Shown here: one piece after another, positions 30,589 to 32,582 of the stretch
Layout: each line of letters begins with the position of its first letter
How positions within the stretch are numbered: position 1 is the first letter of the stretch
NCBI GenBank assembly: GCA_030428835.1
Contig: JAUIEP010000017.1
Coordinates: 1 to 47,245, forward strand
Direction of reading: 5' to 3'
Source of the DNA: Gammaproteobacteria bacterium
GTDB lineage: Bacteria > Pseudomonadota > Gammaproteobacteria > Pseudomonadales > Halieaceae
DNA: 47,245 nt
Translations under genes and position numbers: made by a program
Notes under the pieces: model-generated
Database searches by the model: none
The model's input: the letters and a program-made list of their open reading frames with translations, nothing else
Told to the model about the DNA's origin: nothing

Positions 30589-30704
30589 AGTGATCACTAA
30601 TGTGGCAGCCGGCGAACAGTAGTGCTATAAAGCCGCCCGACTTTTTCGGTCACAATAACTCAACATGCCATGCAGGAGAATCCACCGCAACCACACGGCG
30701 GTGG
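30589..30704. other. Inverted repeats in the gap before the wax synthase
   Basis: The 283-bp gap 30557-30839 between two divergent genes contains a perfect 10-bp palindrome AGTGATCACT (30589-30598) and a 7-bp stem CCACCGC/GCGGTGG (30682-30688 and 30698-30704) with a 9-nt loop. Either could be a regulator site. I could not place a convincing promoter for either gene, and nothing else is seen in the gap. Confidence 0.4.
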
Positions 30705-30839
30705 CAAGACCGATTTGGCCCGGATATTGCTTTCGGGCAGGAGTCGAAACATTTGGGAGGCCCCCGGGTCATACCAACTTAAAGAATCTGAACTACCTTG
30801 ATTACTAACGGCACGCCCCCCGGATAGGGCCCTGGAACT

Positions 30840-32582
30840 ATGAAACAACTCGGCATTCTCGATGCAGCGTTCGTCAACCTGGAGCAGTCCAACACGCCCC
30901 AGCACATCGGCGGCATGGGCATCTACGACCCCTCCACCGCACCCGGCGGCTTCGTCCGTTTCAAGGACGTCATCGCGAGTTTCGAGCGCAGGCTGGGCAA
31001 CATGCCCCTTTTTCGCACACGCCTGGTGGAAGTCCCGGGAGGCCTCGATCGCCCCTACTGGGTGAAAGACGCCAATTTCGATGTCGAGTTCCACCTGCGC
31101 CATATCGCCCTGCCGGAGCCCGGCGACTGGCGCCAGTTGTGTATCCAGGTGGCACGGCTGCACTCGCGCCCGCTGGATATGTCGCGCCCCCTGTGGGAGG
31201 CCTACATCATAGAGGGCCTGGACAACATCCCGAACCTGCCCAAGGGCTGCTTCGCGGTCTACACCAAAATGCACCACTCCCTGGTGGACGGTGCCGGCGG
31301 CTCGTCGTTCATGGCCGCGCTGCACGACCTCGTCCCCGACCCCTCGGATGATCCCAACGCCTTCTCCGAGCCGCGCCTTGTGGACGCGGAGCCGTCCGTC
31401 AGCGAGTTGCTCACCAAGGCGACGTTCAACGGGATCAGGAACACGGCGCATTTGATATCGGGTTCCGTGCGGACCGGGCGCGAACTGGGCAAGTACGCTC
31501 TCGGCGTGGCCCGCAAGGACATCCCTGTACCGGATATCACCGCACCCAAGACCCTGTTCAACAAGCCCGTCGGCCCGCACCGGGTCTTCGACGCGGCGGA
31601 ATTTCCGCTCGACGGCTTCAAGGACATCAAGAATGCAGTCGGCGTGACCGTCAACGATGTCGCCCTCGGCATCATCGGCGGCGCCATGCAGCACTATCTC
31701 GTGGCCAAGGGCGCCGCGCCGGAAGAGGGATCGCTCGCGGCCGGCATCCCGCTGAACATGCGCACGCGGCGCGGGATGACGGACGAGAACAACCAGGTCG
31801 GCTCGGTATTCTCGTCGCTGCACACGGATGTCGATGACCCCGTGGAGCGCCTGCGCAAGATCAACAAGTCCACGGAAGAAGCGAAGCGCAGTGGTGAGGC
31901 CAGCCCGATGGTCGACGCGCTCAAGCTGGCTGGCGTGTTCTCGCCCGCGCTGTCCAAGGCCGTCGCGGGCTTCTGGTCGCGCAACGACCTCTCGCGCCAC
32001 ATCCCCATGAATATCTCGACCTGCGTATCGAACGTCCCGGGGCCCGACTTCCCGCTGTACTGCGCGGGCGCGAGGATGGTCGACTACTACGGCCTCGGCG
32101 TGCTGACCCCCGGCATGGGCGTCTTCCACCTCGTCTTCAGTTACGCGGGCAAGGTCACACTGTCGGTCCTGGCCGACCGCGACATCATGCCCGACCCCGA
32201 GTTCTACCATGACTGCCTCGTCCGTTCCTACGAGGAGACCTACGCCGCGGCGATCAAGCTCGGCAAGCTGAATGCGGCCAAGGCCGATGTCGCGGCCAAG
32301 GCCAAGATCAAGTCACCGAAGCGCAAGCGCGCGATCGGTGAGAGCCGTCCCAAGAGCGCGCCGCAACCGAAGACTGCGAAGAAGAGCAAGGCGAAGAAGG
32401 CCGGGGCGAAGAAGGCCGGGGCGAAGGCGCCGGCCAGGAAGAAGTCCGCCGCCGGCAGCAAGGCGCAACCGAAGGCCGCACCGGCGAGGCAGGAGGCGGC
32501 CCGCAAGGCGCCCGCCACCAGGTCGACCGTCCGGCCCAAGGCGACCCGGCGCAGCGCCGCCGCCCGCCCGAAACTGAGCTAA
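30840..32582 (+). CDS. Wax ester synthase/acyl-CoA:diacylglycerol acyltransferase with histone-H1-like tail
   Basis: Makes wax esters or triacylglycerol from acyl-CoA and alcohol or diacylglycerol at the membrane and lipid-droplet surface. The catalytic motif HHSLVDG is at 145-151, and the second-domain block TCVSNVPGP is present; residues 1-475 match the usual enzyme. Residues 476-580 are an extra tail with 35 Lys/Arg, 30 Ala and 3 acidic residues, including KKAGAKKAGAKAPARKK. The tail contains a 15-bp tandem repeat at 32391-32420. This composition is that of histone H1-like and AlgP/PhaF-type tails that bind DNA. Fusion to a WS/DGAT is unusual. The ATG at 30840 is the family start. It precedes tatD and rapA on the same strand but with a hairpin between. 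Confidence 0.95.
   Translation: MKQLGILDAAFVNLEQSNTPQHIGGMGIYDPSTAPGGFVRFKDVIASFERRLGNMPLFRTRLVEVPGGLDRPYWVKDANFDVEFHLRHIALPEPGDWRQLCIQVARLHSRPLDMSRPLWEAYIIEGLDNIPNLPKGCFAVYTKMHHSLVDGAGGSSFMAALHDLVPDPSDDPNAFSEPRLVDAEPSVSELLTKATFNGIRNTAHLISGSVRTGRELGKYALGVARKDIPVPDITAPKTLFNKPVGPHRVFDAAEFPLDGFKDIKNAVGVTVNDVALGIIGGAMQHYLVAKGAAPEEGSLAAGIPLNMRTRRGMTDENNQVGSVFSSLHTDVDDPVERLRKINKSTEEAKRSGEASPMVDALKLAGVFSPALSKAVAGFWSRNDLSRHIPMNISTCVSNVPGPDFPLYCAGARMVDYYGLGVLTPGMGVFHLVFSYAGKVTLSVLADRDIMPDPEFYHDCLVRSYEETYAAAIKLGKLNAAKADVAAKAKIKSPKRKRAIGESRPKSAPQPKTAKKSKAKKAGAKKAGAKAPARKKSAAGSKAQPKAAPARQEAARKAPATRSTVRPKATRRSAAARPKLS

Follow-up and report, generated by a model that had tools for sequence, protein, structure and literature searches.

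A wax synthase/DGAT (WS/DGAT) from a member of the Halieaceae ends in a long basic tail that is real, keeps its make-up across the lineage and is under selection in close orthologues. Its gene lies in a 47,245-nucleotide stretch of DNA that was analysed as a whole and is called the window here. Long tails of this type are rare in the proteome and, in the sample that we surveyed, they fall on proteins of neutral-lipid storage. Such tailed storage proteins suggest that the chromosome may serve as an attachment site for oil droplets. By analogy with known granule tethers, we consider a droplet-to-nucleoid tether to be the best reading of the WS/DGAT tail, with a probability of about one half.

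The open reading frame at 30840-32582 on the + strand encodes a wax synthase/DGAT of 580 amino acids, as seen from its translation and profile matches, and closes with a stop codon at 32580..32582 (+). The enzyme core comprises residues 1-475 (30840..32264, +). In profile searches with the window protein, PF03007 covers residues 6-275 (226.3 bits against a cut-off of 23.6), PF06974 covers residues 318-466 (116.8 bits against a cut-off of 20.7) and TIGR02946 gives a full-length match of 419.6 bits (curated cut-off 309.95). Motif matching and alignment place HHSLVDG at residues 145-151 (31272..31292, +). It is of the type HHxxxDG, which we take to be the active-site motif of the WS/DGAT family, and H145, H146, D150, and G151 are invariant in an alignment of 25 rows. 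The PDB entries 7nxg and 6chj, presumably the WS/DGATs of Acinetobacter and Marinobacter, belong by sequence to this enzyme family, with E values of 5.8e-52 and 7.2e-50. The chain of 7nxg has 463 residues and is matched up to 434, that of 6chj has 455 and is matched up to 443; neither has room for a tail of 105 residues, although the deposited constructs are possibly truncated. Judged from these matches, the core is that of an ordinary bacterial wax synthase/DGAT, and synthesis of wax ester or TAG is predicted. The PF05597 phasin domain is absent from the window protein in a profile search at E up to 1. An open frame of 516 amino acids runs opposite the WS/DGAT gene at 30660-32210 on the - strand and is most likely a spurious frame that mirrors the G+C-rich coding strand.

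The tail occupies residues 476-580 (32265..32579, +). Its 105 residues include 24 K, 11 R, 30 A, 10 P, 9 S, 2 E, and 1 D, and none is aromatic. The first-pass annotation had reported 35 Lys/Arg and 3 acidic residues in the last 105, and a recount of the composition found both its counts and its coordinates right. AAG is the codon of 23 of the 24 lysines, in a window with a G+C content of 65%. Since none of the 105 residues is aromatic and six are hydrophobic, the tail is without an obvious lipid-inserting part. In a structure prediction built on an alignment of close relatives only, nearly all positions from about residue 490 onwards have a pLDDT below 50 and show no secondary structure; the whole model is poor (mean pLDDT 51.7), so the call of disorder rests mainly on composition. 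The tail is probably a polycationic, histone-H1-like, disordered module added to the enzyme. A profile search of the tail alone with HC2 (PF07382) gave 10.6 bits against a cut-off of 40 (E 0.6), and the likeness to HC2 is compositional only. As candidates for a known domain in the tail, HC2, MXAN_5187, SRP-alpha, and PRK14900 (the valyl-tRNA ligase tail) were rejected as weak compositional matches, none of them over its cut-off.

The tether proposed in the first-pass annotation was to count as refuted if the tail were lacking in all relatives, and a survey of WS/DGAT homologues clearly finds the opposite. A basic tail is present in all 33 distinct sequences at ≥70% identity (the window's own counted), in 13 of the 15 at 60-69% and in one of the two at 50-59%. 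Two blocks within it are conserved. The block AAKAKIKSPKR near the tail start (residues 485-495; 32292..32324, +) recurs as the pattern AAKAKI.SP[KR]R in 18 of 49 sequences at ≥58% identity, the window's counted. The block RPKATRRSAAARPKLS closes the tail (residues 565-580; 32532..32579, +); PKL stands within the last 14 residues of 25 of the 49 sequences at ≥58% identity, against 0.32 expected from shuffled tails, and the end block is found in none of 83 paralogues. The middle of the tail is variable in length and order among orthologues. Uncorrected pN/pS was calculated for seven close orthologue pairs, six of which are drawn from five sequences and hence are not independent, and amounts to 0.22-0.46 in the tail and 0.06-0.11 in the core. 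For six of the seven pairs pS is at least 0.5 in both parts, and the test is conservative for these six because the missing correction at high pS overstates the ratio. The sole pair of low divergence, L046/L048, gives 0.46 for the tail and 0.11 for the core. The tail ratios in the close pairs indicate that the frame is translated and constrained, and a chance or artefactual frame is ruled out by them together with the conservation of the tail in relatives. Three wider pairs give 0.69-0.73 for the tail and 0.14-0.18 for the core, with synonymous sites near saturation.

Basic ends are widespread among the WS/DGATs of this lineage. Frames open at an end and alignments stopping before core residue 430 were dropped, which left 174 WS/DGAT rows, 153 of them distinct (135 order-level loci and 18 class-wide). 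Under a lax criterion for a basic end (net charge of at least +6 and at least 20% K/R), 112 of the 135 distinct WS/DGATs from Halieaceae and some neighbouring families carry one, compared to 2 of the 18 class-wide. A strict criterion applied to the last 60 residues selects 53 of the 135 and none of the 18. The tail is lineage-wide and not peculiar to this enzyme. The 112 basic ends are 15-169 residues long (median 56.5) and, pooled, contain 0.1% aromatic and 2% acidic residues. Many WS/DGAT paralogues have polybasic ends of just 15-25 residues with clustered K/R, and ends of this length, which is short for DNA binding of the H1 type, are as compatible with a general electrostatic role as with one like that of histones. 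We also read 29 more order-level loci and 5 plasmid records; 32 of these were evaluable (L386, open, and L387, with a broken alignment, were left out), and 10 of the 32 have a basic end. At ≥60% identity all six sequences are basic, one of them from Halieaceae, and below 60% identity 4 of 26 are, each with an end of at most 36 residues. On a FastTree tree of 150 core rows the presence of the tail changes at least 17 times, a count with the direction of change not assigned and no shuffled control.

In the 112 tails, PAKKA/AKKA-type DNA-binding repeats were looked for and rejected as a feature, because they are no more frequent than in shuffled tails (PAKKA 2 observed and 1.8 shuffled, AKKA 23 observed and 23.3 shuffled). 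[ST]P[KR][KR] occurs 34 times against 8.2 in shuffles, in rows that are related to one another. The SPKR within AAKAKIKSPKR resembles, as a sequence, the S/TPKK type of H1 motif. KPAA is modestly represented, 17 times against 7.6 in shuffled tails, and is missing from the window tail.

Long tails are uncommon on other proteins. Among 357 ORFs from the window and 400 kb of a congener, three have a tail by the strict criterion, and two of these are the window protein and its orthologue, whose stretch was chosen on purpose. The sister genome G004 was sampled more widely, with 1,555 ORFs in 80 stretches and 384 in 20 (1,939 together, about half of the genome). These ORFs come from a simple script, which loses genes cut at the edge of a stretch and possibly misses very small ones. 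Stretches were placed on purpose at 1050001-1070000 (the WS/DGAT orthologue), 3180001-3200000 (a paralogue), and 2420001-2440000 (a phasin), and the lipase stretch at 400001-420000 was not. The strict criterion selects 2 of the 1,555 ORFs, the WS/DGAT orthologue and a DUF3336-patatin protein, and 1 of the 384 further ORFs, a PF05597 phasin. The DUF3336-patatin protein is the sole strict match in G004 that came up undesigned. When the criterion is relaxed and confined to the last 30 or the last 20 residues, 3 and 6 of the 1,555 ORFs are selected, with a DEAD-box helicase and a pseudouridine synthase among these shorter matches. Of the WS/DGATs in G004, L163 has no tail, and the third, at 1587579-1588397, lies outside the surveyed stretches. 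G004 also encodes a sigma-70 family factor (L237:3391-4512) that is extended at its N-terminus by about 90 residues rich in Lys, Ala, and Ser.

The DUF3336-patatin protein of G004 (PF11815 and PF01734; L144:1478-3115) has a Lys/Arg-rich tail with the segment RPR.SRRRP, which is recurrent in the tails of this family. Its architecture is, we assume, that of the yeast Tgl3/4/5 and plant SDP1 triacylglycerol lipases. The tail is basic in 24 of 25 readable Halieaceae loci (L211, an open frame, excluded) compared to none of 4 in other families of the order, and the basic tails contain 5-13 acidic residues. The window's own genome encodes a DUF3336-patatin protein with a basic tail as well (L216). 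At four places in three Halieaceae genomes (G018:C32, G018:C13, G019:C4, and G002:C346), a DUF3336 match is separated from a WS/DGAT match by 0.2-1.4 kb.

The third tailed family is the phasins. Among 120 Halieaceae genomes, PF05597 is found in 69, PhaC_N over its cut-off in 12, and PF03007 in 86. A WS/DGAT is present in 68 of the 69 phasin genomes (Fisher p 2e-15) and PhaC in 10 of the 69 (p 0.07); both p values ignore kinship, and the small-genome genus g12 weighs heavily in the counts. A WS/DGAT without a detected phasin occurs in 18 of the 120 genomes, the window's own included. A profile search found no phasin in the window's own genome, where an assembly gap and a true absence are both possible, and for the TetR regulator that neighbours the phasin in G004 the window's own genome gives only weak partial matches. 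By eye, the phasin C-terminus is Lys/Ala-rich in all 22 readable loci of the 25 from Halieaceae (L299, L300, and L303 were misread and left out). Because phasins at five loci of other families in the order (L292-L296) have Lys-rich ends too, the phasin tail is not special to Halieaceae and is a general PhaF-like trait. In G004, two consecutive phasin-like genes are followed by a TetR regulator (L335:11135-13079). The first has a Lys/Ala N-terminus and scores 26.7 bits with PF05597, below the cut-off of 28.8. The second contains PF05597, has a Lys/Ala C-terminus and directly precedes the TetR regulator. This order presumably recalls the phaI/phaF/phaD genes of Pseudomonas. PHA synthase was not detected in the G004 genome, and its TetR regulator matches no PhaD-named model. 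Given the strict matches in G004, and given that the phasin accompanies WS/DGAT more than PHA synthase, the tail tends to be a mark of neutral-lipid storage proteins in the Halieaceae lineage. On the Caballeronia sp. plasmid NZ_CP084253.1 (L388:314-2475), a WS/DGAT gene whose product has a C-terminal extension of mixed charge has an annotated phasin family gene immediately upstream. This adjacency is a second hint of a link between phasins and neutral lipid.

Granule-nucleoid tethers are known for polyester granules, polyphosphate granules, and the lipid droplets of Rhodococcus. To our knowledge, these tethers sit on non-catalytic proteins. Parts of the published texts allow the window tail to be compared with them. 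PhaM, PhaF, and PhaH are named as tethers (PMC13052382, in part). PhaF of Pseudomonas is similar in that a Lys/Ala-rich disordered C-terminal module is carried by a storage-granule protein (PMC3574117, in part). It is a phasin on polyester granules, whereas the tail described here is on a neutral-lipid synthase without PF05597, and a separate PF05597 phasin with a PhaF-like tail is present in related genomes. MLDS of Rhodococcus jostii RHA1 shares neutral-lipid storage and a Lys-rich C-terminus, by which it is demonstrated to attach lipid droplets to DNA; a change of Lys to Glu abolishes the binding (PMC5504291, in part). MLDS is the major droplet protein and has PAKKA motifs, whereas the carrier here is an enzyme and PAKKA is not enriched. 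AlgP of Pseudomonas aeruginosa has an H1-like Lys/Pro/Ala C-terminus that is required for granule spacing and fragments of which bind DNA (PMC9239181, in part). It serves polyphosphate granules and has KPAA tandem repeats, unlike the window tail. PhaM of Ralstonia eutropha, whose C-terminus is histone-like, associates with the synthase at an early stage of granule formation and attaches granules to the nucleoid (PMC13052382, in part). Unlike the basic tail described here, which is part of the synthase, PhaM is a protein of its own and acts on PhaC by binding and activating it. The feature that the window tail has in common with this class is a basic, probably disordered Lys/Ala/Pro-rich terminal module, and the likeness to the DNA-binding tails of PhaF and AlgP proposed in the first-pass annotation holds at the level of composition.

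In the proposed tether, the WS/DGAT core or the phasin domain would sit on the nascent lipid droplet. The tail would point into the cytoplasm and bind DNA without sequence specificity, in the manner of the C-termini of PhaF, AlgP, and MLDS. Nascent droplets tied to the nucleoid in this way would be spread out, their fusion would be limited and they would be shared between daughter cells. Three families with different cores, a likely shared droplet site and similar tails suggest that the tails share a partner located elsewhere than on the droplet, and we infer that DNA is the best supported one. The retained composition of the tail and the end blocks of many orthologues argue for the tether. 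It is weakened by the short ends of paralogues, by PAKKA not being enriched and by the acidic residues in DUF3336 tails.

Other explanations remain, in the order of lipid anchoring, which is the main one, other polyanions, and near-neutral growth. WS/DGATs work at membranes, and a polybasic tail might keep the enzyme close to its substrates by attaching to anionic phospholipid, either in the inner membrane or in the droplet monolayer, instead of binding DNA. The many paralogue ends of 15-25 residues with clustered K/R would be enough for such an anchor, and the lipase-like protein and the phasin, both expected on droplets, are similarly tailed. We nevertheless think an anchor unlikely: the tails can be as long as 169 residues, aromatic residues make up 0.1% of the 112 pooled tails, and the membrane anchors known to us are amphipathic or contain Phe, unlike these tails. 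In PhaF, granule binding belongs to the N-terminal domain and DNA binding to the basic C-terminal domain (PMC3574117, in part). That the tail binds another polyanion, such as polyphosphate, RNA, or acidic partner proteins, or acts as a multivalent scaffold that concentrates storage enzymes together, appears improbable to us. The similarly tailed AlgP does sit on polyphosphate granules (PMC9239181, in part), short basic ends in G004 are found on RNA-related proteins, and the PKL block, which 25 of 49 orthologue-like sequences and 0 of 83 paralogues possess, may point to a specific partner and not to bulk charge alone, but the sequences examined, in which partners were not directly searched for, indicate none. 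Near-neutral growth of low-complexity Lys/Ala tails by slippage on exposed C-termini, with little function, would suit the 15-169 residue range, the at least 17 changes of tail presence on the 150-row FastTree tree and a tail that is faster than the core (0.69-0.73 in the wider pairs, near synonymous saturation), but it is already disfavoured and very improbable, as tail pN/pS is 0.22-0.46 in seven close, partly overlapping pairs, end blocks are kept by many orthologues, acidic residues stay at 2% pooled, and the rarity of long tails on other proteins of G004 speaks against a general slippage habit.

The droplet-to-nucleoid tether may extend beyond the WS/DGAT. Tentatively, and with some doubt, we propose that in Halieaceae, which are mostly without PHA synthase, the phasin pair and the TetR-type regulator serve lipid droplets; with synthase, lipase, and phasin all tailed, the whole droplet could be chromosome-bound, and synthesis and breakdown would both take place on the nucleoid.

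In the open-access literature, covered by titles and starts of abstracts and by term searches of full texts, with subscription papers outside the scope, no such tail on a WS/DGAT is described. Part of a 2023 sediment survey of WS/DGATs reports a C-terminal domain in Bacteroidota, SCP-2 in two sequences, which is not the basic tail of the Halieaceae type (PMC10351704). In the main text of a 2025 review of organelle positioning, a term search finds 'lipid droplet' absent (PMC13052382). The enzyme and the type of tail are each known, and their union on a synthase, together with a tailed lipase-like protein and phasin, appears to be new. If the tether is true, a tail on the lipid-making enzyme would position droplets from birth, and the Halieaceae would be a natural test bed for bacterial placement and sharing of storage lipid. 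The tail is a sequence mark by which more droplet proteins may be found, and it suggests what phasins may do in bacteria that have no PHA synthase.
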